Below, piece by piece: positions 6,254 to 24,850 of a stretch of 27,500 nucleotides of DNA; the first letter of the stretch is position 1, and each line of letters opens with the position of its first letter. Under the pieces are notes generated by a model. It saw only the letters and a program-made list of their open reading frames with translations, was not told the DNA's origin and searched no databases. The DNA is taken from assembly GCF_000485595.1 (NCBI RefSeq), contig NW_014577252.1, positions 258,912 to 286,411 of the forward strand, written 5' to 3'. Made by a program: the position numbers and the translations under genes. This stretch comes from Priapulus caudatus (taxonomy: Eukaryota; Priapulida; Priapulimorpha; Priapulimorphida; Priapulidae).

Positions 6254-6312
6254 ATCATATCAGGAGTAAATAATAATAGATTATTTATATTATTATTCAC
6301 TCCTGATCATAT
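6254..6312. mobile_element. Palindromic micro-element, copy 1, with 7-bp direct repeats
   Basis: A 45-bp palindrome at 6261-6305 starts CAGGAGT and ends ACTCCTG. The arms are 18 bp (17 of 18 paired) around a ~9-nt AT-rich loop. It is flanked on both sides by ATCATAT (6254-6260 and 6306-6312), an exact 7-bp direct repeat as expected of a target-site duplication. It shares its ends and flank length with copies at 14265, 18143 and 24797. It encodes nothing. Transposase and superfamily are unknown. Confidence 0.72.
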
Positions 6313-7153
6313 GTAGGGCCATTGTGGACGCCTAGCAATTTCACTTGGTAATGTATATTGTGCGATCCTCCGAACCAGCTTCAGACATTATTATTACGTG
6401 AAGTAGGGCCTAATGCCACATGAATAAATGAAAAACGCCATTCTTCTTACATCGAGACTCTTCAGTCTCCTCGGTATACATACGCAATATATACTGTTAA
6501 CTCCGAGCCGTGGCTGTGATGTCACCAAAGCTAGACCATTGACGTTACCGGCCCAACCAGGCTTGTATTGGGGACACTGCTTTGAGATCGCTACGAGGTA
6601 CATGTCCTACATGTGCTACCATCTAGTGGTTGTGAGCGAATACAAGCGTTTGTGACACGCATACGTGCACACATATATACAAAAAAAACCACGCACGCAC
6701 GGGCCTTCAAACACAATATATGTACGCATTACATACTTTATGATATCGCGCATGAATAACTAAGTGAGCTATATTTTTAAACAATTATGTAGAACTGTGG
6801 ACCTTACTCGTGCATATTATCGTCTTTGATATAAATAATTTATGATATTTAATTTCAATCAATTCAAGTATATTAAAGTAGCATTTGCATGAATTTTCAT
6901 ATAATTAAGTGAATGTGACGCAAATTATTCTCCTGGGACGTTAACGTAGTCTATCAAATTTATAAAAAAAAGCAATTAAATAGATTTGCTTATAGAAATT
7001 AGATTACACTTGAGGAACTTTTATGTATTCACTTATGAGCGGTATTAAGTAGCTAAGCGGTATTAGCTGGTAGCGCTATTGTACGGGCCTGTCTATATAT
7101 GTGTGCAGCAGGTAGTGCGATGAGTCACCTGCACGTACACACGTGACATATGT

Positions 7154-7208
7154 CGCACGCACAGGCACGCACGCACGCATGCATGCACGCACGCACGCAC
7201 GCTCACAT
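7154..7208. repeat. (ACGC)n microsatellite
   Basis: Imperfect tandem ACGC/GCAC tetramers with a GCATGCATGC interruption, inside the large LIM-gene intron. Open frames across it encode only His-Ala-Arg-Thr repeats. Confidence 0.9.
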
Positions 7209-8437
7209 GCGGGCGTCAACGCGTATGGTTGTTTGTTTAACAATTTGATCGAAGTCACGAGAAGCTCTTGTCGTCAAACTAATACAGCGCACACGTTGAC
7301 CCAGTGTCAGTTGCGATTTCCTCACGTCTGCCGATGGACTCGGTTCATGGATGACTTCACATCGCTAAGTAATGACGCTTTGGTGCGGGATATGTTGGCG
7401 AATGCATATCTACGCGGAAAATATAGATTCCCCAGCTTTCATGCTGTTACTGTGGCATGGACCTAATCTGATGTTTGTCGTTGATGAATTCCACACATCT
7501 GAGCTCATTCTGAGAATTGCTACGACAGTTTACTGTGAGAACATGCAGTCAATAGTTCCTATAACAAATAGATTGCTACCTTTTTCGATAATCACTGTTG
7601 ACATGTGCCTTGATGAAGTAGGAAATCTCGACAGCAACAAAAGCATTTTCGCAAACTAGGTTATGGTCAGACCCCAAGTCTGCCATTTTCACTACTAAAA
7701 GTAGTGATTATTTCTGCACTGGTTGGTCGCTAACGACTAGTGTACGATAGTTGTTAGCATGGTTCCTGGTTAGGTGAATGGCTCTGCATGCCATTGCTCG
7801 CCGTGACTGTGTTTGGACAGCAGGCTCACACAAGACCTTGCTAGTGGAATACGTTCGTCTTTTTCGGTGCATTAAGCTACGGGAGGCCCACATGTCGGTG
7901 TAAATAGCGGCACAGCTATAGTTACTATAGCCGAGCAAACCTTCGCTAGTCCTTTGGAGCAAAAGGCAGAGCTGAAATGTTCTCGTGATGGCTCTTTACG
8001 TCTGCATAATAAGCTTTATTTCCTTCAACTTAGTCAAAGATTTCGGCAGACATCTTTTATGGCCGAGTGCTGTTTACTGTGAGCTTATGTCAAGTGTGCC
8101 GATGATATCGCTAGTGCAATACAGTAGCGGATAAGGTTTTACTACATGTTGTACTTCCTGATAATGCCTGCCACTTTAACATGTATAGAGACATTATCAT
8201 ATGTCATAGAAGCGGATTGGCTAGCTAATGCGATATATGCGGTGGTGCAGACGGTGGCGTTCATTGTGAGTGATTCAGATCCAAGTGGAGGTATAATCAG
8301 TGCTTTCGCGAGTGTGATATTACCCAATAAAGCAAAGGGTTCGCATTCGCTATACGTTCTATAGGCCACACTCCCTCAGTGTTCCAAGTTAACGTGTTTT
8401 GGCGCCAAGTGACACGTCCCCTTGTTCATCGCTGAAA

Positions 8438-9540
8438 ATGGACTTATCTGATGCCTGCAGTAAAACGCGCGTACCAGCTCTGTTCGAACAAGGCTTAACG
8501 ATAGCATCCAAAATGGAAGATTCGGAGACGTCTAGTGAAGATACCAAAGGCGGCAACGAACTAGTTAATAGCAACGATCCAGCTCAACCCGAAGGAACAA
8601 CACTTAGAGATATAGCTGACAAGGACAAAGCAGGATCTCAAAGCCACGATAGGAACGAGCAAACGGTAGGGACGTTACTTCTAACAGCTAACCCACACGT
8701 GCCTGCGAACTACGTCCACGATAAACTTGTCAACGACTGTGTCGATGACAATGACACGAGCATTTCGGAGAGTGAAGGCGAGGAGTGCTCTCAAGGGCCA
8801 CGATCCGGGGATCGTATATCATCTAAGGCGAAATTCGAGAAGAAGAGCAAGGTCGGGCGGAATCGGCTGAAGCCATTCATTAATCTCGTCAAAACATCGC
8901 CGATGTTAAAACGGAGGTTTGGCAAGGAGGTATCGCTGGGAGCGACATCGTTACCGAAGAGCGACGTCGTTCATCAGACCCACGTTAGGCAGAAAGCAGC
9001 AGCTGCCACGCGCGAGTTCTCCAGCATGGCTGAGCTTCTGAGCGTCAGCAGCGTCGTCGTCGAAGCGATCGCGAAGTCGGATTACATGCAATGTGCTGGT
9101 ATGTCGCCAATTTGCTACAGCGATAAACTGCCTGCTGCGAAGCTCGGGGCGAGATGCCGCGGGCTGGCCGAGGTCGCAAAGCACAACAGTACGGTGCAGA
9201 CGGTGTTCGACAAATTGCGCCTCCAACGGAAAACACAAGACAAAAAAGGTGGCGGAGTATCGAGCAGGAAGAAACTTCAGATGATTTCCGATAAAGAGCA
9301 GAAACGTAAGGCGGATGTAGATGTTAGAGATGAGCTGCTCGAATGCATCTCCTCCTTAGATCCCGGGTGGGAATCGGTGTCACTCTCAAGCGGTAGTCAG
9401 TCGGACAGCTTAGAAAACTGTAAGGATATTTCGGCAAGGAAGAAGTCGCCGGTTTATGATGACGCAGGAATATCAATGTTTGGAAGCCTAACATCGAATG
9501 CAGTGTATGTCATGTGTGCGAAGGAACAGGACTCAAGCAG
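8438..9540 (+). CDS. Unrecognised Ser/Lys-rich protein-coding exon in the LIM-gene intron (exon D)
   Basis: A long open frame with coding-like codon use gives about 367 residues from ATG 8438 (A at -3, G at +4; the frame is closed by TAA at 8390). The product looks largely disordered: an acidic/Ser-Thr region at residues ~25-125, a basic stretch (KFEKKSKVGRNRLKPF) around residue 140, more hydrophobic segments at ~195-230, a Lys/Arg-rich segment at ~265-300 and a Ser-rich, acidic C-terminal part. No domain is recognised. Coding character fades after about 9540, where AGCAG|GTGTGT offers a donor in phase 2, the same phase as the donor of exon B, so this exon could join exon C at 10057 in frame. 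CTGCAG|T at 8460/8461 offers an acceptor in the matching phase, which would make 8461-9540 a 1,080-nt cassette exon. It could therefore be an alternative first exon (giving a product without the first half of the LIM domain), a cassette that splits the LIM domain, or a separate nested gene ending at TGA 9766. Confidence 0.65.
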
Positions 9541-9766
9541 GTGTGTGATGGCGCGCGTGTGTCATACATTTTGTCATCACTCCTCGCTCATTGCTATCCA
9601 AAATGTCGCGTTGCGGATCTGTTCATGGCGTTACTCTCTCACAAGTTTTTACTTATATGATATATTATTTTTTTGCAGTGATAATTTCGACTGCATTTTC
9701 TACATTTTTTGCGTAATTCATAGCCGCACAGTTTTGACGCACGAATCAATATATCCAGTGGCGTGA
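9541..9766 (+). other. Open extension of exon D with a possible 138-nt intron and short terminal exon
   Basis: The frame stays open to TGA at 9764-9766, but the residues (runs of Cys, Phe, Tyr, His) look non-coding. A run of seven T followed by GCAG at 9671-9678 is a good acceptor. Splicing 9540 to 9679 would remove 138 nt (a multiple of three) and add about 29 residues ending at TGA 9766. Whether this is used or is simply intron of the LIM gene cannot be settled here. Confidence 0.28.
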
Positions 9767-10056
9767 CATTGCGTTGTAATTTTTATCGCTGCCACGTCAA
9801 CACGTGTGTTATTTGCGTTCCATTCTCAATAATGGCAGGCATTAATCCTGCCATGTCATAACTCTATTCCCAGCTCCGTAAATGCGCAAAAAGCATTCGT
9901 TTGCGATCATGTGTCTTTTCCCATATATGCAAATGATAATAGCAGTGGCAAGATAATAATACATGCGTACATAAACATTTTTGTGGATTTTCATGGTTGA
10001 CAGCTTTGACGTGCATCAGTCGCATTTATTCATCTTTTTTTTTAAATTATTTCTAG

Positions 10057-10089
10057 GTGTGAAGCCGCACTGTCATTGAAGACCTACCG
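10057..10089 (+). CDS. LIM-domain protein, 33-nt micro-exon (exon C)
   Basis: A tiny exon framed by strong splice signals: a T-rich tract and TTATTTCTAG before it, and ACCG|GTAAGTCTG after it. Read in the phase left by exon B (AG plus G gives Arg), it encodes CEAALSLKTY and two bases of the next codon. This places a cysteine exactly at H-x2-C-x2-C-x2-C of the LIM domain (HAVC FKC SRC), and C-x3-LSL-x-TY resembles the EPLIN/LIMD2 kind of LIM domain. Because it both satisfies the frame and completes the motif, I treat it as real. The remaining C-x2-(C/H/D), expected 16-21 residues after this Cys, must come from a further exon. Confidence 0.75.
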
Positions 10090-10874
10090 GTAAGTCTGCT
10101 TTGACGAAATGAATGGTCCAATTATGAAAATGCTGCGAATCTTGTGTGTAAATAAGGTTAACGAAGAAGCTTATTGTTGCGCTACCAGTACCTCTCTAGA
10201 CTGTCACCGCTGTCATTTCCCTGGTCACGCGCCGTTCAAATAAAAACGTATAATATGATAAGCATATTATAATATGCGATGATACAATCAGTTTAGCGAA
10301 AACTGCCAAATGCGACACATCCGAGGCTGAATACCACGTGACTGAGTGACTAGATTCAACCACCACAACAACATTCTACGTTTTACTCTGTCGTTATTGT
10401 TACACAAATACCGGTGCAGCCTAATGTAATTACTATGGCTTTCATGAGAGGATTTCCCAGGGCTTCAACTCCAATTAATCTAATGAATGATTAGTAATTG
10501 GCAATTTCGTTTGTACAGATCTTTATTCCGCTGCAGTTATTTCAGTATTTCGCCCGGGTTATTTCCTAGGATAATAGACCAATACGATTTCCATTAGTTA
10601 CAACACTCAACGTTTTAGTTAGTAAAAATCGGTCACCGGTGAATTTTCTGAAATTATCTCAGTCATGTGTAAACCGTCAACTTCCCTCAGTCAAAGCATT
10701 TTCGTTCTCAGTCTGCGACATTTTAATATTATCCATAAAATCTATATAGTTTTAGCAGTTAATCAATAGGCATGCATTATGTGCATATTAGTTGACTCCT
10801 GATGATATCGATTCAGAAGTATCATAATATAATATGTATAATATTATCATGTTAATATTTTTATTCCTATTATA
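10090..10874. other. Intron or intergenic stretch after the micro-exon
   Basis: AT-rich sequence with no clear gene. At 10189 an acceptor-like ACCAG is followed, in the phase needed after exon C, by codons containing C-x2-C and a TAA that overlaps an AATAAA-like string. The spacing is too short for a normal LIM domain, so I do not call it an exon. Confidence 0.4.
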
Positions 10875-11032
10875 GACACGCATACGCGCGCGCGCACCGA
10901 CACATGCACACACACATGCACGCGCACACACACACGAGCGCGCACGCACGCACACACGCACGCACACGCACACGTACACGCGCGCACATGCACCGTCACC
11001 AGCACACACACACACCACACACGACACACCAC

Positions 11033-11073
<41 letters not shown>

Positions 11074-11162
11074 CCAACACACACACGACACACGACACGA
11101 CATGCACGCCAAGCACACACACACGGCACACACACGCACACAACACGCACGCACACACACAC
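10875..11162. repeat. (CA)n microsatellite with ACGC segments
   Basis: About 290 bp of CA/GT dinucleotides mixed with ACGC and ACAC-C variants; the purest CA run is about 11034-11066. Open frames on both strands (His-Thr or Cys-Val repeats) are artefacts of the repeat. Confidence 0.97.
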
Positions 11163-11845
11163 TGTATGCACATGTCTGTTGTATGTCACTAAACTGAGGC
11201 TGTATATTGGCTGTTAGGTAAAAAAAAATTTTTATTAAATTTATATAGCAGCTCTGTGATATGACTCCTGACAGTTTACCATTTCATAGCAGATCACTCG
11301 TACGTGCTGCCATCTACTGGCCAGCAAATACATGGAGATGGAAAAAAGTGTTTTGTGTGCGTGACCGTGTTTAAGAGTATGTACGCACAATAGATGCACG
11401 TGTACGCTCACAAGGTACACGCTCTGCTCTACCTCGCCTACCTACCTACCATACTATGTATCTATACTATATATATGATATATATATATATAACTACTTG
11501 TGAAGATTTGTATTCTCACATGACATTTTGTTTGCATGTCTGTTACTGATGTGATTTATATTTAGAGAAGGTGATAGACAGATAATATTCATCTTGGCAG
11601 CCAAATCCAAAATATTTGAACATCTGCCCTTTATATGGGACGATTGTTTGACATTAATAAAGGTGAATCTGACTTCTGTCTGTTTTATACATTAGTGCAA
11701 ATGACACACATACGTGCACACGCCCCTAACACATCAAGTAATCAGTTTTATTATGATACTTTCTTATCATGATCTTTCCTACCTCAGATATCCGTCGTAT
11801 AGCTAATCAGAACAGAAGTACATGCCAATGGGAACATGCGGTACA
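11163..11845. other. Unannotated AT-rich stretch
   Basis: No gene seen. It includes a short TA run (11466-11492). It also has a segment around 11300 with GCTGCCATCTACTGG, which loosely resembles GCTACCATCTAGTGG at about 6614. Both lie near CA-rich sequence and may be remains of one dispersed repeat. Confidence 0.4.
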
Positions 11846-11954
11846 ACATCACACAACACACAGCACAAACACACACACACCCACACAAGCACACAACACA
11901 CACACGACGCAGGCCCACACACACACACACACACCACACACACACACACACACA

Positions 11955-12001
<47 letters not shown>
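11846..12001. repeat. Compound (CA)n-(TA)n microsatellite
   Basis: CA-rich repeat (about 11846-11953) passing directly into an uninterrupted TA run (about 11958-12001). Encoded frames are only His-Thr and Tyr-Ile repeats. Confidence 0.97.
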
Positions 12002-12002
<1 letters not shown>

Positions 12003-12403
12003 GTGGTGCTGTGACGGACATATTGTCAATTCTCTTAACTAATCATTGTCGGGTTTTTCGTTACTTGATCTCTAACTTGATTGTCATTATATTATTTAAA
12101 TATGAACATATTTCACTCACACATTTCATGTCCGTGATATTTGCTGTACATTGCTCTTAGATACACTGCTCTATTTTTATTTAGTACGCTAGATTTCGCT
12201 ATAGTGTAAAATTCAATCTTCTGGTTTGACAAAAATTAACACATAGTTGGTTTACTTGATTAAAAATATTTTGACGCCTGTAAAAGGCATAACACAATAA
12301 ATTACAATGTAGCACTGCACCTATGTAGCGCTGCATCTATGACAGTACTGAATGATAAGTGGAGAAAGCTATTTGCTGGTCAATGTTCGTTATTATCGTT
12401 ATT

Positions 12404-12418
12404 CACCAGGGGGCGCCA
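12404..12418 (+). promoter_or_regulatory. CTCF-like motif
   Basis: CACCAGGGGGCGCCA agrees with the bilaterian CTCF core (CCACNAGGGGGCGC) at all but the first position. It is GC-rich in an AT-rich setting, about 100 bp left of a large inverted repeat. It could equally be part of a decayed mobile element. Confidence 0.3.
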
Positions 12419-12518
12419 CCTACCTGAACGTACCGCCTTGGCGGGCACACTCTATAACAACCACCGATACTCACCGTACCCATAATGCTCTAAAGGACGA
12501 AAATCCCTCTAGGAAATG

Positions 12519-12912
12519 TCTATATTCAGGCCGGTACGGGAGATTACGGTACGCATATATTTGCTAATATATTGACTAATCGCGCGTCAATAAACTCAAT
12601 ATTCACAGAGAGTATAGCTAAGACATGTGTCTATAGGTATCTAGAATTTTAGAAATTTAATCATCTGTAATTCACTTCCGCGCGCATATATTTGCTATAT
12701 TGACTAATCGTGCGTCAATAAACTCAATATTAACAGAGAGTATATGAATTCAAGCCGGTACGGGAGATCATTTGCATAATATATTCTAGATACCTATAGA
12801 CACATGTCTTAGCTATACTCTCTGTGAATATTGAGTTTATTGACGCGCGATTAGTCAATATATTAGCAAATATATGCGTACCGTAATCTCCCGTACCGGC
12901 CTGAATATAGAC
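12519..12912. mobile_element. Long perfect inverted repeat (foldback element)
   Basis: The arm at 12519-12647 and the arm at about 12783-12912 are perfect reverse complements over ~129 bp, starting GTCTATATTCAGG and ending GTATCTAGAAT. The ~135-bp spacer holds a shortened, diverged third copy of arm sequence in the left-arm orientation (about 12685-12769). No coding capacity. No clear target duplication was found. Confidence 0.85.
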
Positions 12913-13179
12913 ACTCCCAATGCTAAAAGTAAGCTGCAAGTGGAAATCTCCGTCCACATACAAATGCTCATGTACATCCTGCGCATGCGCATGTGCATCA
13001 TGATCATGCGCATGCTACATCAGTCTCGATTCATAATCAATCCGAGAATCATCCGAGAATCATTGAATCCGATGTCATAAACGATAGCCAAACCGCATGA
13101 ACAGTGTGTCCTGTTACAGTCAGTCCAACATGACTGCCCACAATGTGAAAAAATATCCAAAGTTCATAATATAGTACTG

Positions 13180-13210
13180 TTCATTCATTCATCATTCGCT
13201 CATTCATCAT
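13180..13210. repeat. Short (ATTC)n repeat
   Basis: Imperfect tandem CATT/ATTC tetramers (TTCATTCATTCATCATTCG and similar). Confidence 0.75.
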
Positions 13211-13782
13211 ACTGCAGAAATTTCACCTTTGAATCCTCAGAATTGTTCCTCCTGCCTTGTACCGGTGATTGTTATATAGTGACCACCACCTGGTCGGTGC
13301 TGCACACCCCCTATACGTACCAGCAAGTACCAGTACACGATTTCCTACAATGTTCCTCCATACACAGCAACGGTCAAGCACGTCCGTTAAAGTGATTACG
13401 TCACCGCAAATAGTAAAAATAAAAAAAATTATGTCCACTTTTCCACAAAATGTAAATGATTCTGTTCACTTTTTATGGTTAAATTGCTGCATTTACTTCC
13501 TATTTTGCTATTCCGTTCGATGTGAGCAAACGCTCGTGACTCATACATACCTCATAGCAAGCATTTCATGTTGTGATCAATGCATCAAATCGCCCAGGTT
13601 TTTTTTGGATTTTTAACTAGTTGAGAAACAATCTTATCATGTAAGAATTTGAGGATACATTAGAGTCCCGTTAGTACTTACATTTAATGTAAAAAATTGC
13701 AACAAATATTTTACAAATATATATATATATATACGGTAGAAAATTCGTGACGTAAACAATTTAATGTTAGTTATGCTGAGAC

Positions 13783-13998
13783 GGTCTATGTCCCCCAGGG
13801 TACTGCCGGAACGTACCCTAGCTGGTACTATCTAATATGCCAAACCGTACCTCGCCTACTTCACTAACGAGTTTAGGGAGTCGCCTACGCCTACTCCCTA
13901 ACCCTAACCCTAACCCTAACCCTAACCCTAACCCTAACCCTAACCATATCAGATAGTTACCAGGGTACGTTCCGGCAGTACACTGGGGGACATAGACC
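13783..13998. mobile_element. MITE-like element carrying telomeric repeats
   Basis: A 216-bp element whose ends are ~54-bp imperfect inverted repeats. The left end begins GGTCTATGTCCCCCAG (13783) and the right end closes CTGGGGGACATAGACC (13998). Both arms contain TACTGCCGGAACGTACCCT, or its complement, and differ by a few bases and a small indel. Between them lies a short unique segment and a (CCCTAA)n tract. No open frame and no convincing target duplication (left flank GCTGAGAC, right flank CTATGAGC). Likely a non-autonomous DNA transposon; family unknown to me. Confidence 0.75.
13896..13945. repeat. Interstitial telomeric repeat (CCCTAA)n
   Basis: About eight perfect CCCTAA units, i.e. 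TTAGGG on the minus strand, the common metazoan telomere repeat. They sit inside the inverted-repeat element at 13783-13998, so they are part of that element rather than a chromosome end. Confidence 0.95.
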
Positions 13999-14147
13999 CT
14001 ATGAGCGTTAGGCATCTCTATTATGTTCGAATGCATGATCGGATATTTAACTACCAGCACAGCATACCTACGTTGAAATAAGCACGTAGCTTACTCGCCA
14101 GCGTCTGTTTGAGTCTCAATTCTTTATAACATGCTATTATTTTATTG

Positions 14148-14374
14148 AAAAATTCTTGAATAGTTGCTATGCAGAGTTTAGGTTCTAAAAGCAGTAATTC
14201 CACGGAAGATCCAAATACGTAATATGTGGGTGTTATATAACACCAGAAGACTGATAACACCCACATATTACCAGGAGTGTATTGATACACTCCTGATATT
14301 ACGTATTCGGATCGTCTGTGGAATTACTGTTTTTAAAACTTAAACTCTGAATAGCAACTATTCAAGAATTTTTT
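14148..14374. mobile_element. Foldback element with diverged ~90-bp arms
   Basis: The left arm (14148-14236) pairs with the right arm (14254-14374). Both outer ends read AAAAATTCTTGAATAGTTGC on their own strand, with several mismatches inside. The centre contains the perfect 16-bp palindrome GGTGTTATATAACACC. The right arm is longer because a 24-bp palindrome plus a 7-bp duplication has been inserted at 14272. Non-coding; probably an old MITE-like foldback. Confidence 0.8.
14265..14302. mobile_element. Palindromic micro-element, copy 2, with 7-bp direct repeats
   Basis: The 24-bp palindrome at 14272-14295 has two perfect 11-bp arms (CAGGAGTGTAT and its complement) around two bases. It is flanked by ATATTAC on both sides (14265-14271 and 14296-14302). 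It lies in the right arm of the 14148-14374 foldback; the left arm retains the matching uninterrupted sequence, so insertion with duplication is shown within the window. Confidence 0.82.
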
Positions 14375-17300
14375 ACATGATAAATGCATGGCTCGAGTTT
14401 TGCAATGTTTGGTGAGATAATGATTGCACGCATGTCTATAAGCAGATTTGCAAAAACTCAGAAAGAAACGAATTTGAATGTATTTTACACGAAATCGGTG
14501 CAGCCTTATGAAACGAAAAAAAATCTGTACGGCCAACGTGCAAATCTGGCGAACACGCGTGTTAGTAGTAAAATATGCGGCGGGAAACTAATAAACTAAA
14601 TACCAATCCCGGTACAAGGTGTAGAAGAAGTAGGCCACGTATCACCAGACCTTAATCTGTTTTTGCACACGCTATTCTGCCTACATTTCGCGCAGAAAAT
14701 CCTGAGAGGTATATTCTGTTTTCCGAGACACGCAAGTTTAGAAGCGTGTAGAAAGAGCATTTTGTGAATGACCATGAACTGTGATCACGTGAATGGTGGT
14801 ACATAGGTTCACACATATAACCATTTCGTGTATTCGCTTCGCTGATTCGATCGTTAGTGCGGTGTGTAGCTGTGCCCTACGTCCAGCATGGTGACTGTGT
14901 CATTTGGCAAAGGTTATTCGCTGTAGTAGAAATGATGACCGGTATATATCTATTCGTAAAAAATAGATGTTAGATGTGGAAATAGTGTTATCTATAGTGA
15001 CTTGGTTTTATAGTACCTTATCTGATTTTAGCGTATCTGCAAATAATTATAATAATATCCGTGAGATAATCCCAGAGAGTCACGGTCTTAGGTTATTCCA
15101 ACTCTAACTCTTTGATTTAAAGTTTTGGTTTTTCTCAATAATTGTAACATATGCGCATGCGTTATATTAAAAATGCGTATAAGTTGAAAATGCGTCATCG
15201 ATGATAAGATTTATAATTAGATCTCACATGGATAAAAATTTATAGATAGTAATGTCAAAACCTGCCTACTCCGCTAATTAAGCTAGTTATACAAAGTCAC
15301 CAAGTAAAGTCCATAGAGTTCATATTGTTAAACAGTACGCATGTCTTAGTCGTTTCTAAACGCGATCGATAGAGTAAAACAGTCCGAAATTATCCTATTG
15401 TATTAAACCTATTCATTATCTACTCATATAATATATAACACGTGAGTGTAACATACAATCCTATTGTATTAAATTTAATTATAGGCCTACTTGCGTGGCT
15501 ACAGAAGCTGTCGATCGTCATTGCAGTTACCATTCTTGTGTTCTGCTGTTTCCGTGGCTGTATTAATTCTCACCTGACGGTATATTGCATGTGTGACGTG
15601 TTTTTTCCTCAGACATAAGCTTCTAGCTTATGTTGTGCTTGTGTGCAGTGTGCACCAACGCGATTTATCTGACTGCTCTTACAATGCATTATAAACATGT
15701 ACGAAAACAGAAAAAGATAACAAGGAAGCGTCCGCAGGTCACGTCTACTGTTAGGTAGGAAAACATGCAGCTGTGCCTAAGATAGATAAGCTGTCAAACC
15801 ATGTAAACGCTGGCGAAGTCAAGGTGCTGCATGGGTATTTGCCTATAACGTAAGGATGTGCTGCTCACAACCTGCTTGTACGTGAATATACCTATGATTT
15901 ATATAACCACCTATAGCCGTGAAAATTACAACCGCACTGGGTAAAAGATAATAGATTTTCATGATTTATTAAGCTGCCATTATCCAGAGGCATGGTATAA
16001 AACACTATGTTTCTAGGAAGTTCCTAAAAGAAAATGATATTTTTGGTTGCATACAGGTCGCATGCACTTTATTTTTGTCGTTGTTAATATTGGGTCATCA
16101 ATTATGCGTTCTGCTGTGCGGTGCCTATATGAATAGCCTTATTTGGCCATGCAGGTGTACCTGCAGTGAGGTGTGGTGATTTTGAACAGTAGCCGGTGCC
16201 ATTTAAAAGGCGGGTTTTCGGCGTCAACTGTGCAGAAAATGACAGCAGGTCCTCGTTTCCTGTGATCAACCGCTTTTGGGTAGCCAGGTGTGATTTGGTC
16301 CAATTTCCTCTCCGGCTAGTTATAATATAAATATATGTTGTTGTTAGAGACTCCTTACCTGTTGTAAAATGCGGTCGAAGCATTGGTGCATTCCAAATTG
16401 CCGGCAATGAATGTCACTCCTCACGGTAAATTTTACCACTTCGTTCGACATCGTCATGCCTGGTGATCACGTCTCTTTATCTTCTGTTGCCACCTGCTCC
16501 TTTCCGACATGAAACCAGCCCATGCCCATGCAAACAATCTCCCCCCGTTGGCAATCACGCTTAAACTTTCTCTGCGCTATATTAATTCTTTATTTCTCTG
16601 GAGCTGCCTCTCCCTTATCCCGCTCTGACTTTCCCTCTGCTCGTTCTTGCGATCTTATAAATGGGATTTCTCCGTTGTCATTTGCTACCGGGCGCTGTTG
16701 AAGCTGTTTAGATTTCCAGAGGGAAGTCAAAAGGGAATGATTAAAAAAAGTTACAGATAGAAATTCCATCTTCTATTATGGACTCCTGATGAGATCATGC
16801 ACGTGCATAAAGTACTCCCACAATCACTTTTATAAACCAGATGGAAAGTATACGTTTTGGTGTAATGACGCATATTGATGCAATCGACGGACATAAAAAT
16901 TAAATTGACTCGCGCAGTTTATTATTTTACAATCCTTATAAGGAAATGTATATAATACACGTGAGGTTTAATACTTTATTCTGCACAATTGTATTGTTAG
17001 AACAATTCCGTTCGCCAAATTTAAGACTAGCAAAACTTAATCGAGGTGACCGCAGCCCGCGGCTTTGCACGCAACCTGTAACTTTTCTTCTCTTCGATGC
17101 GGGAATCATCTGCGTTTCACAGCGAAATTTCCATAGATTTATCACTAATGTAGCCGAGCATATAGGTCTCCCGTGCTGTACCGTAGCAACGAAATTCCTG
17201 ATTTTAACGGAGTAAGTGAGTCATTACGTTAAATCGTTTCATATTTTAGCCACGAGTGGGCGTTACGGGACGCAGCAAGGCTCCAGAGAGGAGTTATCCA

Positions 17301-18142
17301 CTTGCTGTATATATCAACATGCGTGCACGCATGCAGCGGATAACGGGCATGGACCTTGTGTGTATTTCCTGCACTTGGCTACTTACTTGCAGAGATACGG
17401 ATTTTGGTTTTGTGCTCTTGTGAGAAGAGCATCAAACAACTCAAGGAGCTGCTAATAGGAATGAGACACGACAGTAAGATGAGCTCAGTGAACAGACCAG
17501 GAGTGCTATAACAGCAGATGCGGCCACCGTCGGCAGCCTTTCCAAACGAGTTCATTCACTCTGCTCGCGTTTGTTTTTCATTTTAACTACGCACAGTTAT
17601 ACTAAGCCCCCTTACTCATCCCCTTTGTTTAACGTGTCAACTTGCATGAGTGTCTTCCGTACATCGGCATTGTCTCTGGATTTGCAAACCCATGTCAGCT
17701 AGGCACAATATGCTCTGCAATAATGGAAGGGAAACGAGTACATTTGGGACGCCGTATTGCACTATTTTAATTATTTGGGAACCGGGAAATACCAGACGAA
17801 ATTTTTGTAATTTAGGAAAAATAGTCAACCGGTACTTGGGAAAGCCTAAATTTTAGTTAACAGGGAACGGGGAATTGGCCCATTTTATCTTAAATACTGG
17901 AATGGACCCCCGTTACCCGCATAATTATAAAATGATAATCCAGAAATTTTGCGTCGAAATTTTGCATCGAATGCTTGTCAAAGTGAAAGTATCTGATTTA
18001 CGGGTTCGGGGTTTTAAAGTGTACTGAAAAATAAACATGCGTGGACCGAATACCTGCAAGTAATTGATTTAAGTATACTACGTAAGATATGTAAGTTACA
18101 ATTTCTACAAAAAGTTGAGTACTCACTCATCCTGTGAGATAG
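14375..18142. other. Gene-poor stretch
   Basis: No supported gene on either strand. Open frames up to about 100 codons (for example 16102-16407 on the minus strand) have no recognisable motif or convincing splice context. A 16-bp direct repeat, ATCCTATTGTATTAAA, occurs at about 15392 and 15459. The stretch at about 16430-16680 is pyrimidine-rich on the + strand. Confidence 0.45.
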
Positions 18143-18210
18143 GTAGTATCAAGAGTGCATAATAGAGTGCAGTCAAGAGTGCACTCTCTATTATGCACTC
18201 TTGGTAGTAT
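18143..18210. mobile_element. Palindromic micro-element, copy 3, with 7-bp direct repeats
   Basis: The 54-bp element at 18150-18203 starts CAAGAGT and ends ACTCTTG, with 18-bp perfect arms (CAAGAGTGCATAATAGAG and its complement). The flanks are GTAGTAT at 18143-18149 and 18204-18210. The central 18 bp repeat part of the end sequence (TCAAGAGTGCACT), which suggests an internal rearrangement or nested copy. Confidence 0.78.
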
Positions 18211-18512
18211 ACTCGTGAATTCACACGGTAAGAAATATCTCTTGTCCGGACAGAGAACGGAGATCTCATGTACATCGGATTGAATAGTTAAACGTGCAGT
18301 ATATACATAACAAATCGCGACGCTCCAACTACCAGTACATTACGCGCACGTACTACGGAAGTTAACAACCTAAAGCATTCTTGCCCTCTACGAGGCTAGC
18401 ATATCCTATAGCGTATCTCTCACATTTTCATCAGTGAAGATCGCCAGAGAGACACAAATACAAATAACAAGCACCTTCACATTTGTTACCTAATCAGGAT
18501 CCCCCTAATCAT

Positions 18513-19505
18513 TACCCCTTCACACACGGATTTTTTTACGAGTCCTTACGGATCGCACAATTCGTAAAAGTACACGGATCCTTACGATTTCGCCACTTTT
18601 ACGAGCGATTTACGTGTTATTACGAGCTATTTACGGTTTATTACGGTTTATTGCGGATTATTACGAGTTATTACGATGTATTTACGGCAAAATTCCACGA
18701 TTTCTTAAGAGTTGTCACGGATAACTACGAGCAACTTACGGGCATTTTACGAGCTTTTTACGGATTGTTACGGATATATTACGGAATGTTACGATTCATC
18801 GAAGCTTTTACGTGTTAGTTACGACCTGTTTACGTGTTGTTACGAATAGGTACGAGTTAGTTACGACCTGTTTACGTGTTGTTACGAATAGGTACGAGTT
18901 AGTTACGAGTATTTACGAGTCCTTGCGATTTTTTGGCAAAAAGTATATAAAATTCCTGCAAATTTCAATCTATCATCAACTTGTTGACTGCCCTCTTCTT
19001 TGGAGCCATGCTTGTAGATATTGTAAAGTAGATATGCAGAGATGTAACTTCTCTGACTTCTTGATAACAACTGAAAATAACGTGTTCGATTTTGCAGCCT
19101 TTCCTAAATCGTAAACAATACGTAAGAATACGTAAAGTATACGTATCTATTCGTAAAGTGCTCGTAATAACTCATAATAATCCGTTACAATCGTACAATT
19201 GTTACGAGTCATTTACGGATTATTGCGAGCAGTTTACGGATGGTTACGTGTTGTTGCGAGCGGTTTACGATACTTACGGATTGTTACGAATTATTTACGG
19301 AAAAAATCAATCCGCGTGGACACTCGTGAGAAGATTTTTGACATGTAAAAAAATTTCCCTCTCCTTTCACGGATCTTTACGAGTGTCTGCGAGTTGTGAC
19401 GAGTTAATACGGATACCAGCGAGTTATTTACGGATGCTTACGATTGACTACGAGTTGGCGATCCGTAAGGACTCGTAAGAAAAATCCGTGTATGTGAAGG
19501 GGGTA
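18513..19505. mobile_element. ~1-kb TIR element filled with a TTACG array
   Basis: The ends are inverted repeats of about 45 bp. The left reads TACCCCTTCACACACGG then TTACGAGTCCTTACGGATCG; the right is its complement with small changes (GTGTATGTGAAGGGGGTA). TA bases next to both C-runs are compatible with a TA target site, but this is not certain. The interior consists of two blocks (about 18530-18925 and 19110-19470) of TTACG(A/G)-type units every 10 or 11 bp, separated by a ~180-bp unrelated centre. The long open frames here (Tyr/Leu/Arg/Val repeats) follow from the repeat unit and its lack of stops in one frame; they are not considered genes. Confidence 0.78.
18817..18900. repeat. 42-bp tandem duplication inside the TTACG array
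   Basis: Two identical adjacent 42-bp units, each beginning AGTTACGACCTGTTTACGTG. Each holds four TTACG-like cores at 10-11 bp spacing, showing how the array grows by multi-unit duplication. Confidence 0.9.
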
Positions 19506-21212
19506 TAGTTGTCTAAAGTTCTACATCTAAAGTTGTCTCGTCTTACGGATAACCCGCTTTGCAGTGCGCATGTGTGCAGCAATATTATGGGCGCGATAGA
19601 GTGGAACGTCTGCGAGATGTGCTTCTTAGTATTCAGTGACAGATTAACCGCACAATTGGTGATCGTGTAAGTCTGTGCATACTCGTGCAGTTGCTATGAT
19701 TGCTTGCGTACGTAGACCTCGGCCTTTACAACGCATCCGGCCACGAAGACGCTCATATACGGGAGGCATGAACTTGCAGGACTACCTATATTAGTCCGCA
19801 GTTTGATTGAAAGATGAATTTACATGATTAGAGTAGCTTTAAGCAGTGACGAACTATTCGAATTCACTAATTAACTGAAGTGTTCTTGAACGTTTGGGTA
19901 AAATAGTCTGGAAGCGAATTTTGCTTTTAAAGGTACAGCAACGGATGTGTTGGTGAAGACCACGAATTAGAAGTAAAGGACACGATCTGAAGAACAGATC
20001 AATATGACACATTGTCTCAGTTGGTGGCATTGAATTAAGCTTGCATAATCCTGAAGTACTGGCCGTCTGCTGTGCGGTTTGCAATGTTGTCGTAATTCAA
20101 TTCACGAACCCTTGGGACGGGGTATTTGCAATTACGGTAATTTGTTTTAATATTCATTTATCTAGCTTGTTTTTTTTATCTGTTATATGGACGGCCAAAC
20201 GGAGATTTGCGTTTACATTTTCGTAACCTGATGGTGTCAATGGAGCGAATGTACATCCAGGATGTGCTATCAAATGAAAATATTGGCAACGTTTAGCCGA
20301 GCGTGTTTGCACTGGGAACAGCAAGTAGTTTAGTTATTAGGTACTTTCTACAGGTTTCTCGCACGCAAATTGCGCTGCTGCTGCCGATAATAGCAAAAGA
20401 AGTACTTGCGCAAATATTGGCCGAGGGAAATTTTGGCGCTAGGATATGTTTGCTTTCTGGTTTTTTTCTTTGCTTTTCCTGTTACAGCAAATGTTGTAAA
20501 GTGCAGTAGCTCGTTGGGTCAGCTGCACAGAGATCTTGCCAGTTTTTCGTTGACGAATAAAATCATTCCAGTGAGTATACTGCTGTAATCCTCTTTCTTA
20601 AATGACTCGGAAAACAGTAAAACCGTTTAAAAGTTTTTTAGTGTAACTATTATCCACATTTTCAAACACATTTTCTTTAATCCGGCCATTTCCCCCTTGT
20701 CTATAACATAGCTTATTAGAAATGTTTGTACTATAGTATTAACAGGAAAACATAATAAACGTTATGTTAAACATACTGTTTATCATGTATCCCTGGTATT
20801 AAAGAGGTAGGACACAATACCTCTTAGGAATACAAATAGGATACAATACAAGGCCCAAAAACTTTCTTTTCAAAATGCGCCACCATGGATTGCATGTCAC
20901 TTGAGATATCTGCGAACACTCGCTAGGTTCTCAGCCGTGTGTGACTAATTGCTATTCCGTGTAGACTCCCACAGTAGTAAGTCTATTTTATTGTCGCGTG
21001 GGGCGTGAAAAGAACTCGTTCGATCTACTACACCGGATACGAGACTGCCAGTAATACAGCCATCAGTTTAGCATTACCGCCCTGCAACAGGTAACCTACA
21101 CGTTGACCATGGCCTTGCAAGTCACTGTAATAGGCTGTTGTGTACCAGATCAGTAGATGCATCTGCAGAAAAGAGGGTGTATTTTGCTATCGTGTGCACC
21201 GTAGAAGCTTGC
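19506..21212. other. Gene-poor stretch
   Basis: Nothing supportable as a gene. Some open frames (20041-20226 and 20303-20588) are rich in hydrophobic residues but lack coding-like codon use and splice context. A small hairpin AAGAGGTA/TACCTCTT occurs at about 20802-20825. Confidence 0.45.
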
Positions 21213-21283
21213 ATTTTTAATGGGTATTCGTTTCTCCACCCTGGCACGCGGTCAGGGTGGAGAAACGAATACCCATTAAAAAT
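21213..21283. repeat. Perfect 31-bp-arm palindrome
   Basis: The left arm 21213-21243 (ending TTTCTCCACCCTG) and right arm 21253-21283 (starting CAGGGTGGAGAAACG) are perfect reverse complements around the 9-nt loop GCACGCGGT. No flanking direct repeat was found and the ends do not match the CARGAGT family. The perfect arms suggest recent origin or selection. Confidence 0.9.
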
Positions 21284-21376
21284 CAATCGATGTTATGCCA
21301 AGATACTAAAACTTTGGGCTGTGTCAAGAAAAATCTATATACATCCCACCAAACCCTTGTTTTCTCAAGACATGTC

Positions 21377-21892
21377 CTATTTACACCCGTTGGAAGAAAA
21401 ACATTGGACACTCCCTGACAAACACAATCCATCAGCTCTGTCAACTAGCACATTAGTCTTGAATGGGGCTTGCCAGTCTGTCAAAACACCGCATTTCACT
21501 CTCCCTTTTGCACGCAAACATACCTGAGACGAACTAACTCGAACACAGTTTGTATGGTTTGTGTTTTTAAAGTATTTTTTCTCAGCCGGCGCAGGCACAT
21601 TTTCACGGGATTTACCTGTACGTAATCGGTAAGAATACAGTATTCTACGCTCACGCGGACGGGCTCCTTCGAGCTGCGGTGACATCGTAAATAACTGTGT
21701 CTTTCTGGCATGACCCGCCGCCAACGTACACCGTTGTTCGAAATGTTTGAGTGAAAGATCGGCGAGTATATGGAGCATATATGAGGTGTATGGCTTTATA
21801 TTTTTGATCATCTCTAAAGGTTTCAGTGTAGAAGTGAACTTCTGTTGGCCTGACGAGAGGACGTAATTGACTCTGTTGGAAGCAATGAACAC
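21377..21892 (-). CDS. Unrecognised 171-codon open frame, doubtful
   Basis: The longest non-repetitive minus-strand open frame in the right half, with product rich in Lys, Arg, Ser and Cys. No domain, signal peptide or homolog is recognised. An overlapping + strand frame (21138-21527) crosses the palindrome at 21213-21283. No promoter or splice signals stand out. It may be chance or a mobile-element remnant. Confidence 0.12.
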   Translation of the reverse strand: MFIASNRVNYVLSSGQQKFTSTLKPLEMIKNIKPYTSYMLHILADLSLKHFEQRCTLAAGHARKTQLFTMSPQLEGARPRERRILYSYRLRTGKSRENVPAPAEKKYFKNTNHTNCVRVSSSQVCLRAKGRVKCGVLTDWQAPFKTNVLVDRADGLCLSGSVQCFSSNGCK

Positions 21893-22400
21893 AGTACGTA
21901 ATATGTTTTAGAGAGCTACATGTATAGTCTTATTGTGTGACAGGAATGATTGATGGGATGTTTCCCTATCCTTCCTTAATTATGAATCAAAATTAAATCA
22001 TTACAACTTGAATACTGTAATGAGCCCAGTACCTATAAGTCACAATAATATGCAACATGATATCGAATATCAGTGCCCATTAAAATTATGGGCTCCTTCT
22101 TATATCGAACGCGGAGAGAAGTATTTTTACTATTGATCGGCTGGCATATCACGACAGTGGTTAATTGAATAAGTGAAGAGAGATTTTTTAAACTATATAG
22201 CCTTCAATGTTATGCCGCGGCACGTATGTGCAAATAAAACATTATTGATATCCATAGTCACCTCCAACACTGGATCACACCAGCCTGACGATGACATGGA
22301 AGTTCATCGAGGGTAAATTCCCTCGACATACAGCTTGCAGCACATGATTAACCATATCCCGCGTCTTCTACCATCGTATTCATCGTCTCAGCCACACAGC

Positions 22401-22420
22401 TGAGTGAGTGAGTGAGTGAG
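22401..22420. repeat. (GAGT)n short tandem repeat
   Basis: Five consecutive TGAG/GAGT units within a somewhat GC-richer region (about 22380-22960). Confidence 0.85.
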
Positions 22421-22476
22421 TACTCTCACAGTCACGTGGTCACACACGCGATGTGTACACGCGCAAGTTTAGCCGC

Positions 22477-22482
22477 TATAAA
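22477..22482 (+). promoter_or_regulatory. Candidate TATA box upstream of a possible first exon
   Basis: TATAAA in GCCGCTATAAACTGCC at the start of a GC-richer stretch. A donor-like CTTG|GTAAGC follows at about 22736. Together with the coding-like start at 22890 this may mark a gene start, but the link is speculative. Confidence 0.15.
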
Positions 22483-22889
22483 CTGCCATTCAAGCAATCT
22501 TCCCGAGCGGGTATGATTGTAGCCATGTCCGGCCAACAACAATAGCATGCCGGCGATTGTTTACACTGGCCAGATCTTCCCGGTTTCGCCCCCTTCACGT
22601 TCGCCCAATTACGTCTGACCTTCGTCGTTAATGGAGACAAGTGCGAGAGCGTTTCTGTATGATACGCGACGAGTGCTTTAAGAAGCACTTGATTTCGAAC
22701 GCGACACTGAAAAGTGCTTTTGTAGCATTTGTCTTGGTAAGCTGAGACAACCAGCCGCCCGGCCAGTCTGTTTGTTAAATTACTTGCTGTTGGAGAGGAT
22801 CAGGAGAGGAGTTTTGTCTGTCTGTTTGCTTTGGACGCTGCCATTTTGGGGCTGTTCTACTATTGCGCTCTTCGTACCGATTGCTCTTC

Positions 22890-22952
22890 ATGGTCGCCCG
22901 ATGGATGCAAACATATATGGCATTATATTGCCTTGCGCTGCCTGTAGTTGTC
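22890..22952 (+). CDS. Possible first coding exon encoding a signal peptide
   Basis: ATG 22890 (G at +4) opens 21 codons with a short charged start (MVARW) followed by a hydrophobic stretch (YMALYCLALPVVV), as in a signal peptide or signal anchor. It ends at GTTGTC|GTGAGTAG, a strong donor, in phase 0. The sequence upstream (about 22740-22889) is T- and G-rich and could be leader. No partner exon was found in the window, so this rests on the short signal-like peptide plus donor only. Confidence 0.28.
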
Positions 22953-23999
22953 GTGAGTAGCCGTACTAACCCTCTGCCTACCTCCCGCCTTCATTATAGT
23001 CAGGTGCCTTTCGCGCAATGTCGGGCCGTAATTTCTGAGATCGAGGCTAATGCTCAGTATAGTCTTGTATCACGTGTTTTACTTTTTTCGTCGCATAACA
23101 AAATCCCAAATGAGTTGGCGACGTTTCAGAGGACAAACATCCCCGAGCTAGTTAGTGACAAGCGATTAAAATCCCACCGGAGCATTTATTGTCGCACTTA
23201 ATTAGTGAACGTTTAGATATATGCGTTTACATAGAAAACATTAGACGTATGGAAACTGCGGTTCAAATGCGGTTTCTTTACCTATATATACATTCTACAT
23301 ATTACAGCGAGAAACTAGTGGCAATCGCACAGCAGAATGTGAGGGATTCAGTAGATAGTGAGAGGCTGGGCGCTTGCGCAGTGCGCGACTGGTACCATAT
23401 GGTACAGATACATGTTATTAGCCAGCTATTATCCGCCCTGCATTTATACCGCTCGTAAGCTTTCTTCAAAGGCTCACAGTGATATTAGATAGATACGTTG
23501 TGTTGTAAGGGATACATAGTTAATTAAGAGAAGCGCCGCGTGGGCGCAAGTGACCAATATCGCTGAACCAATATCGGTGAATAAGAACGTATTAGATCGC
23601 TACCAGTTACGCAGAAAGCAACAGCAACGCTGCGCAATAATCTTTGAGATAACAACAAGTTAGCGCGAGCATGTTCGGCCTCGATTACATATATGTGCAT
23701 TTATTGGAAACATCAGCAGCACCCCATCGCTGCTTGCCGTCCACTGTGCCATTATAACATCCCAATCATCACGATGAAGCAACATACGAACATTTCGCTA
23801 GAGATTTGACGCGCCAGTGCGCATTGATTGTATTTGCTGTAGCGTTCTTTAGCTCGTTCCACCAAGGATTATGTGCATTATTGATGCGAGCAAAGTGTAT
23901 ATAATATTCTCATTAATTTCGCAATAAGAAATTTCGCAGTTCACTTATAAGCCTGGCGTCGCATGTTCGCATTAAAATGCATGCGCATCTCGCCAGCAG
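22953..23999. other. No gene seen
   Basis: Mixed-composition sequence between the possible signal-peptide exon and the CAG array. Open frames of 60-110 codons show no motifs. It would be intron if the exon at 22890 is real. Confidence 0.4.
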
Positions 24000-24229
24000 C
24001 ACTAGTGGCATCAGAAGCAGCAGCAACAAGAACAACTGTAGCAGCAACAGCAACGGCAGTAGCAACAACAGCCTTATCAGAAACAATGACAGTCGTAGCA
24101 GCAACAACACCCCCAGTAGCAGCAACAATTAACAGCAGCAGAAACAATCACATCAACAACAACAACGACAACAACAACAAAGCAGTAGCAGCAACAGCAG
24201 TAGCAATAACAGCAGCAGTAGCAGCAGCC

Positions 24230-24266
<37 letters not shown>

Positions 24267-24373
24267 CAGTAGCAGCAGCAGTAGCAACAGCCGCAGCAGC
24301 AGCATCAGCAGCAGCAGCAGCAGCAGCAGTAGCAGTAGCAGTAGCAGTAGCAGCAGCAGCAGCAGCAGCAACA
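24000..24373. repeat. Imperfect (CAG/CAA)n trinucleotide array
   Basis: About 370 bp of AGC/CAG triplets with CAA, GTA and CCG interruptions. The densest part is about 24190-24373. Frames encode Ala/Val/Thr, Ser/Asn or Gln on the + strand and Leu or Ala on the minus strand; the Gln frame is broken by TAG, and no exon context is visible, so a coding role is not supported. Confidence 0.95.
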
Positions 24374-24796
24374 GCCACTGTTCTGTTTTATGAGAAGAGT
24401 GGCCTGGCTTCTAAGTGCTTTGAGAGATCCATCGAGGATTCCCGCACAGCGCACAGACACGGTCGGGAAGCTCTCCGGCGTTTGATATTAGAACATATTT
24501 ATTTATAGCCTGATATTCGAGAAGTGAAATCGAACACATTGCGTGTTTTTGCAGCAGTGGTGTGCTCCTTCTGGTCTATCTCACTTGTCCGCGTCAGCAA
24601 CTGGAAAGCCACCTCGCACTGCTGTAATGGTCTGACCGTGATCAATATTTTACATTCAGCTATTTTTCACGTTTTCTAATGAAGGAAATATGATGGCCTT
24701 TCAGTGGCTGCGACCTGGTTCGAATAAATTTCGTTCACGTAATGATTAGGCCGAGACTCTGTGAACCACCGAATTTGACGTAATCGTTCAGTAGAC
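24374..24796. other. No gene seen
   Basis: Sequence between the CAG array and palindromic copy 4, with no coding signal beyond the open tail of the repeat frame. Confidence 0.4.
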
Positions 24797-24850
24797 ATAA
24801 CATCAAGAGTAGTTAATATAACATATGTTATTATCTACTCTTGATAACAT
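24797..24850. mobile_element. Palindromic micro-element, copy 4, with 7-bp direct repeats
   Basis: The 40-bp palindrome at 24804-24843 starts CAAGAGTAG and ends CTACTCTTG, with ATAACATATGTTAT in the middle. It is flanked by ATAACAT at 24797-24803 and 24844-24850. Pairing between the arms is near complete, with a two-base length difference. Confidence 0.75.

Follow-up and report, generated by a model that had tools for sequence, protein, structure and literature searches.

The window, that is, the whole stretch of DNA analysed, comprises 27,500 nucleotides of the Priapulus caudatus genome (assembly GCF_000485595.1, contig NW_014577252.1, positions 258,912 to 286,411 of the forward strand) and is rich in simple repeats. 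It contains five short palindromes, each bounded by a 7-bp direct repeat, and an older inverted repeat that encloses one of them (window coordinates; no strand is assigned):

6254..6312: putative footprint 1, a 45-bp palindrome (6261-6305) with flanks ATCATAT/ATCATAT
14148..14373: older inverted repeat with 78-nt arms, 91% complementary, enclosing putative footprint 2
14265..14302: putative footprint 2, a 24-bp palindrome (14272-14295) with flanks ATATTAC/ATATTAC
18143..18210: putative footprint 3, a 54-bp palindrome (18150-18203) with flanks GTAGTAT/GTAGTAT
20736..20802: putative footprint 5, a decayed 53-bp palindrome (20743-20795), CAGGAAAACATAATAAAC...CCCTG, with flanks GTATTAA/GTATTAA
24797..24850: putative footprint 4, a 40-bp palindrome (24804-24843) with flanks ATAACAT/ATAACAT

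Four of these had been described in an initial annotation as palindromes of 45, 24, 54, and 40 bp with CARGAGT ends and exact 7-bp direct repeats, and all of the coordinates, lengths, ends, and repeats were reproduced. When the window was scanned for exact inverted ends of 7 bp, whatever their sequence but with at least three different letters, accompanied by an exact 7-bp duplication and spanning at most 3 kb, footprints 1-4 were the sole output. Their arm identities ranged from 0.88 to 1.0, i.e., they are near-perfect and some are imperfect. Footprint 5, with an arm identity of 0.81, had been overlooked. Partners were sought for the unpaired CARGAGT words at 17498 and, on the opposite strand, at 10795, 11264, and 16782, and none were found. 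Searches for a homologue of the window frame 8399-9600 and for Pfam families in two window frames returned no match.

The claim that four such matches are unlikely to arise by chance was borne out by the shuffled-sequence control that the initial annotation had named. No CARGAGT pair with a duplication was obtained in 200 dinucleotide shuffles of the window, while inverted ends of 7 bp with any sequence, combined with a 7-bp duplication, occurred 0.45 times on average, with a maximum of 3. Further copies, for which a genome search had been proposed, were abundant: CARGAGT...ACTCYTG pairs with a gap of 0-30 were found 2527 times genome-wide versus 45 times in a reversed control (56-fold), and those with a gap of 31-60 were found 1722 times versus 43 (40-fold). 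The abundance of simple repeats in the window would favor an origin of the palindromes by chance or from low-complexity sequence, given AT-rich DNA, but the empty shuffles and the excess over the reversed control make the probability of this explanation practically negligible. In the sequence examined, 19 of 22 short CARGAGT pairs were bounded by an exact duplication (7 bp in 15 cases, and 8 bp in four). The remaining three, which were dropped as rows, are alternative pairings, each using one end of a duplicated pair. Simple-repeat matches (CACACA more than once, CATATAT, or fewer than four letters) were filtered out of the genome-locus scans; the accompanying window shuffles were run without this filter. 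The same 30- and 40-bp palindromes were found repeatedly, letter for letter, at many sites.

The 15 seven-bp duplications yielded the target consensus ATANTAT, which resembles, without being identical to, the GTANTAC target of Galileo; the Galileo-like variants GTAGTAT and ATATTAC are present in the window. With the left flank fixed as ATAATAT (in a pattern that demanded A or T as the final base), 368 genome places were found versus none in the control. At the 27 such places among the matches listed, the right flank was ATAATAT in 22 and differed from it by one base in five.

The palindromes share their ends with a longer family, a foldback element of mostly 740-800 bp whose first 20 bases are those of the palindromes. 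Among eight longer CARGAGT copies (locus L011 included), the duplication was an exact 7 bp in four and an exact 8 bp in two, one of the latter being a plain AT run; the other two copies had neither. A DNA search with a 120-base end revealed seven opposite-strand pairs spanning 767-782 bp (40 of 1213 candidates scored). The best-studied family comprises 230 strict scars versus no more than 409 ends that lack a directly abutting mirror image, the latter number being an upper limit that includes filler-bearing footprints.

We found that the ends of the palindromes are constant while their centers vary, and that the retained ends have a sharp edge. Palindromes with at least 18 nt of both foldback-element ends numbered 230, those with at least 20 nt numbered 104, and those with at least 21 nt numbered zero, as counted with patterns that omitted the outermost four letters. 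The mode of palindrome length was 39-40 bp, or about 2 × 20, in the first 50 among the matches listed for the set with at least 18 nt. Individual arms were also compared in a table of 18 rows representing 16 loci (two were entered twice), in which five rows diverge at base 13 or 16; L014 and C10:690547, each with one arm matching fewer than 13 nt, were omitted. From the 20-nt edge, we infer retained tails of ~20 nt and a staggered cut that would lie ~20 nt within the inverted repeat, compared to 17 nt in Drosophila P.

The centers of individual palindromes resemble products of end joining. Footprint 2 could have arisen when arms like CAGGAGTGTATCAATA were joined at a microhomology, and a 32-bp relative, CAGGAGTGTATCAATATATTGATACACTCCTG, is located at C1:847546. 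The left arm of the older inverted repeat runs uninterrupted through one ATATTAC while the right arm holds footprint 2, and the left arm thus provides a paralogous empty site. Footprint 3 is read as 18 nt, followed by a 17-nt filler with a second copy of CAAGAGTGCA, followed by 19 nt; a filler-free 38-bp relative was found at C3:171052. Filler copied from end sequence is present both in this footprint and at locus L012. Footprint 4 has a close relative at C3:180304.

We propose, with a probability of roughly 0.83, that the palindromes were left behind as excision footprints by non-autonomous P-superfamily-like DNA transposons whose inverted repeats are of the foldback type. A CARGAGT-ended element would insert at an ATANTAT-like site and duplicate 7 (sometimes 8) bp, as is seen for the examined footprints and for six of the eight longer copies. 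The transposase would then make a staggered cut at each end, severing one strand at the border of the element and its complement ~20 nt further in, within the inverted repeat, so that ~20 nt of each end would stay at the donor site as 3′ tails. The tails would be filled and joined blunt, via short microhomology, or with copied filler, as judged from the palindrome centers. Each excision event would leave one short palindrome, made of two ends of about 11-20 nt that face each other, with a copy of the duplication on either side.

The compared systems are described here from excerpts of the cited papers. P transposase cuts 17 nt inside the inverted repeats (PMC7776569, PMC2895639). Drosophila P repair junctions (PMC2895639, Table 1) likewise consist of the duplication, two inverted-repeat starts, and the duplication, with centers that are blunt, contain 1-3-nt microhomology, or carry copied filler; they differ in coming from a one-site transgene with an 8-bp duplication and 17-nt tails, whereas the palindromes described here occupy thousands of assembly sites, with a mostly 7-bp duplication where checked and a 20-nt edge. 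Galileo, a P-superfamily element of Drosophila, also has 7-bp (rarely 8-bp) duplications, a palindromic AT-rich target, long foldback inverted repeats, and mostly non-autonomous copies (PMC4168063, PMC2775673, PMC3573991); the CARGAGT elements differ from it in their target, their ends, and their size. Neither of the two Galileo papers that were searched for the word "footprint" contains it. P-MITEs of Anopheles gambiae are likewise short non-autonomous P relatives with conserved ends, but have 8-bp duplications and identified related P elements, and the excerpt makes no mention of a foldback form (PMC1562414). Dada shares 6-7-bp duplications, but its authors found no terminal inverted repeats and small RNA genes as targets, whereas the CARGAGT elements have clear inverted ends and ATANTAT-like targets (PMC3706591); Dada was rejected on both grounds. 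Thus, of the two sources that had been suggested from duplication length, Dada falls away because of its ends and target, while the P superfamily is retained, given the 7-8-bp duplications, the palindromic AT target, the foldback relatives, and the retained end pieces. A hAT source was also rejected: hAT elements generate 8-bp duplications and lose their ends on excision, so that their footprints derive from the flanks, whereas here end sequence is retained and the duplication measures 7 bp in 15 of 19 cases.

The genome contains 64 P-superfamily RNase H matches. One frame, of 827 aa, has the domains PF12017/21787/21788/21789 and is similar to Drosophila P transposase 6p5a (E = 2.8e-23). A search for longer members encoding a transposase had been proposed; longer foldback members do exist, but inspection of 33 of the 64 P matches, in 20 loci with flanks of 1.5 kb and 13 longer stretches, revealed no CARGAGT-bounded transposase gene. 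At locus L042, an unpaired CARGAGT end word was seen ~540 bp from a P match, on the one side covered. A tblastn search of loci L001-L034 and L058-L060 with 125 P proteins gave a single match, a 32-aa fragment in L003. A candidate 3.6-kb CARGAGT element, L058:84-3713, was set aside, since its duplication is a plain run of AT and no match within it emerged from tblastn searches with five P frames of this genome and 120 P proteins. Because of the result around the 33 matches and the edge at 20 rather than 17 nt, membership of the CARGAGT elements in the P superfamily is proposed on anatomy, in particular the 7-8-bp duplication and the palindromic AT-rich target.

The same two observations, together with a duplication of 7 rather than 8 bp in 15 of 19 footprints, could indicate that the same footprint mechanism is driven by a non-P transposase with a long (~20-nt) staggered cut. 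We regard this as unlikely, since the 7-8-bp duplications, the palindromic TANTA-core target, and the foldback repeats are as in Galileo (PMC4168063), the genome has P transposase genes, and one P-coding element seems to have a comparable footprint. Less probable still are internal-deletion derivatives whose middle was lost by aberrant gap repair and which possibly still transpose. Internally deleted non-autonomous copies are normal among P elements (PMC7776569), and the recurrence of identical 30- and 40-bp forms would fit such an origin, but break points should then scatter, whereas both arms end at 20 nt (230/104/0), and recurrent forms are also what blunt or microhomology joins predict. 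Moreover, ends 24-40 bp apart would probably leave little space for transposase pairing. Accordingly, where the initial annotation had viewed the palindromes as elements reduced to two ends by internal deletion or by excision, excision is supported and internal deletion disfavored, as judged from the one family with a known parent. The high self-complementarity and thousands of copies could also suggest that the palindromes are hairpins capable of moving by themselves, either as RNA or as a folded single strand. This is very improbable, given the longer parent family with identical 20-nt ends, the variable centers and filler that resemble repair, and the 7-8-bp duplication, which is typical of DDE transposases.

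On the excision reading, thousands of P-element-like excision scars appear to persist in the genome. Bench assays have already yielded P-type excision junctions (e.g., PMC2895639); here, thousands of natural junctions appear to lie beside longer same-ended elements in one genome, and the cut position (20 nt) and germline repair outcomes could thus be measured from sequence. It is possible, at somewhat less than even odds, that the CARGAGT elements represent a lineage not yet described, whether P-like or outside P, which cuts 20 nt in and has left about four thousand germline scars, each one joined independently and carrying a duplication of its own; if so, cut site and repair chemistry would be readable from an assembly alone. 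In literature searches for CAGGAGT and transposon, the titles among the matches listed look unrelated, and no prior genome-wide set of P-type footprints was evident by title among the matches listed in the library searched. Ordinary repeat annotation could overlook such scars or mistake them for tiny transposons.

The P-coding element mentioned above is located at locus L067. It is 4574 bp long, has perfect 34-nt inverted ends (CATAGAAATAGATAGATAACC...; end pair as pattern, CATAGAAATA...TATTTCTATG), and encloses a P RNase H piece (PF21787, E = 3.1e-19), so that a P-type transposase domain lies within perfect inverted repeats. An exact 8-bp duplication is absent at this CATAGAAATA element, the flanks being GTCCACC versus GTCCCACC, a one-base slip. 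A 55-bp palindrome at L003:1104-1158 has an exact 8-bp duplication, and both of its arms approximately match the ends of the L067 element. In this one case, the P-coding element therefore appears, by sequence comparison, to have a similar kind of footprint. The agreement is gapped and extends over ~23-24 nt, neither 17 nor 20: the left arm has two gaps of 1 nt each, and the right arm has one mismatch, one 1-nt gap, and one 4-nt gap.

The tiny CARGAGT palindromes of the window are most probably (ca. 0.83) excision footprints, the scars left when a transposon leaves, and not minimal mobile elements. The four copies claimed by the initial annotation, in which CARGAGT and ACTCYTG face each other, are present in the window precisely as it described them (spans include the duplications):

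6254-6312, palindrome, copy 1
14265-14302, palindrome, copy 2
18143-18210, palindrome, copy 3
24797-24850, palindrome, copy 4

A window scan for exact 7-bp inverted ends (with at least three different letters) bounded by exact 7-bp direct repeats, up to 3 kb, returned those four sites only. In 200 dinucleotide shuffles, CARGAGT pairs flanked by a duplication never appeared; when the 7-bp inverted end could be of any sequence, arrangements with a 7-bp duplication occurred 0.45 times per shuffle on average and at most three times (observed, four). A broader scan, which admitted all CA...TG palindromes 22-109 bp long that are bounded by exact duplications of 7 or 8 bp, revealed a fifth palindrome at 20743-20795 (duplication GTATTAA), and gave none in 60 shuffles. 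For copy 2, an older inverted repeat supplies a paralogous empty site: its left arm aligns gaplessly across the junction after removal of the insert and one duplication.

The striking part is how many footprints one genome contains. In the 385-Mb assembly (2952 contigs), the search for more copies found CARGAGT and ACTCYTG separated by 0-30 bases 2527 times, and the reversed pattern 45 times; pairs with a 31-60-bp gap numbered 1722 (control, 43). Both gap classes together amount to ca. one per 90 kb, these being counts of end pairs, in which alternative pairings of one end may be included, with duplications checked on a subset only. Exact duplications (15 of 7 bp, four of 8 bp) bounded 19 of 22 distinct pairs of up to 100 bp in the sequence examined, many from loci chosen for end match and not for flanks; the other three are alternative pairings, each having an end in common with one of the 19. 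Fifteen 7-bp duplications have the consensus ATANTAT, itself palindromic. With the left flank fixed as ATAATAT and the last right-hand base limited to A or T, 368 places were found in the genome and none in the control; among 27 matches listed of the 368, the right flank was exactly ATAATAT in 22 and one base off in five.

The palindromes fall into several end families, with CARGAGT common to all before the sequences diverge. Ends of the common CAGGAGTAGATAATAGGGAA family that are not directly followed by their own mirror image were found at 212 + 197 places (control, 0). Thirty such loci were examined: nine were footprint-like, and 21 matched a foldback element, mostly 740-800 bp long, whose inverted repeats reach 326 bp and are 99% identical in the best copy. 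The initial annotation had suggested looking for longer members that encode a transposase. Longer members do exist (eight copies with both ends seen, 398 to 800 bp; four exact 7-bp duplications, two exact 8-bp, one of these a plain AT run, and two neither), but tblastn with 125 P proteins detected no P coding in these eight.

The palindromes had also been read as elements reduced to two ends, by excision or internal deletion, and the point where the arms stop separates the two. Beyond base 20, the inverted repeat of the foldback parent reads on as GGAGTGTGAC.... Genome-wide, using patterns that did not include the outermost four letters, 230 CAGGAGTAGATAATAGGGAA-family palindromes retained at least 18 nt of both ends (gap 0-14), 104 retained at least 20 nt (gap 0-10), and none retained 21 nt (gap 0-12), which argues for excision and against internal deletion. 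Full lengths peaked at 39 bp (13) and 40 bp (16) among the first 50 spans listed of the at-least-18-nt set. Compared by letters, 11 of 16 loci had the parent inner sequence for 18-20 nt in each arm, except for one arm with 21 nt, and the rest diverged from the parent at base 13 or 16. The centres are variable, with blunt joins, short overlaps, and fillers, some of which copy end sequence (locus L012; window copy 3, whose 17-nt filler includes a second CAAGAGTGCA). Variable centres and copied filler are the outcome expected from joining long 3' tails.

Judged by anatomy, the transposase of the CARGAGT elements likeliest belongs to the P superfamily. According to PMC2895639, Drosophila P excision leaves TSD-CATGATGAAATAAC(AT)GTTATTTCATCATG-TSD and relatives, and the join types of the CARGAGT palindromes are the same. 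Galileo, of the same superfamily, has long foldback repeats and 7-bp, rarely 8-bp, duplications at GTANTAC (PMC4168063 and PMC2775673). P transposase makes its cut 17 nt into the repeat (PMC7776569), whereas the edge in CARGAGT footprints is at 20 nt; the same paper notes THAP domains in P transposases and states that they are restricted to animals. The 20-nt edge, together with mostly 7-bp duplications, points to a variant.

The P-type RNase H domain gave 64 matches in the genome and none in 14 control genomes. An 827-aa frame, which matches the Drosophila P transposase structure 6p5a (E 2.8e-23), contains PF12017, PF21787, PF21788, and PF21789; its named relatives, among the matches listed, are animal proteins. 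CARGAGT bounding was seen at none of the 33 of 64 matches whose surroundings were inspected, including L042, seen on one side only, where an unpaired end word (CAGGAGTGACACCTCTGATA read inwards; L042:2401-2407) lies ~540 bp from the match. At L066 (C173:62500-70000), parts of the stretch that holds the P matches are repeated; one end word occurs at both 2560 and 4062, another at both 2189 and 7258. A 32-aa fragment at L003:2287-2379 is 72% identical to one of the genome's own P transposase frames (tblastn E 2.5e-7).

Other ends are found at the following loci:

L067:270-4843, P-coding element, 4574 bp, perfect 34-nt inverted repeats CATAGAAATAGATAGATAACC..., P-type RNase H piece inside
L003:1104-1158, short palindrome, 55 bp, CATAGAAATA... 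ends, exact GC-rich 8-bp duplication GTTCCCAC
L009:1850-1878, short palindrome, CACAGATCTC... ends, exact GC-rich 8-bp duplication GTGGGGGC

The flanks of the L067 element agree only after a one-base slip. The two palindromes are likely footprints of further families. Both arms of the L003 palindrome match the L067 ends over ~23-24 nt, with gaps (left, two of 1 nt; right, one of 1 nt and one of 4 nt, plus a mismatch). By this approximate sequence match, a P-coding element of the genome appears, in a single case, to leave a footprint with anatomy like that of the CARGAGT ones. The CATAGAAATA word also occurs near a P match at L044.

The window contains other repeats. An inverted repeat at 12512-12918 (136-nt arms, 99% complementary, 135 nt between) looks like a young foldback-type insertion, and a near-perfect 71-bp hairpin (ATTTTTAATGGGTATTCGTTTCTCCACCCTG... 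and its complement) lies at 21213-21283. A long, degenerate CCTA tetranucleotide array occupies 1-1380, a short interstitial, telomere-type CCCTAA array 13896-13949, and a degenerate array of TTACG-containing units, often spaced ~21 bp apart, 18590-19440.
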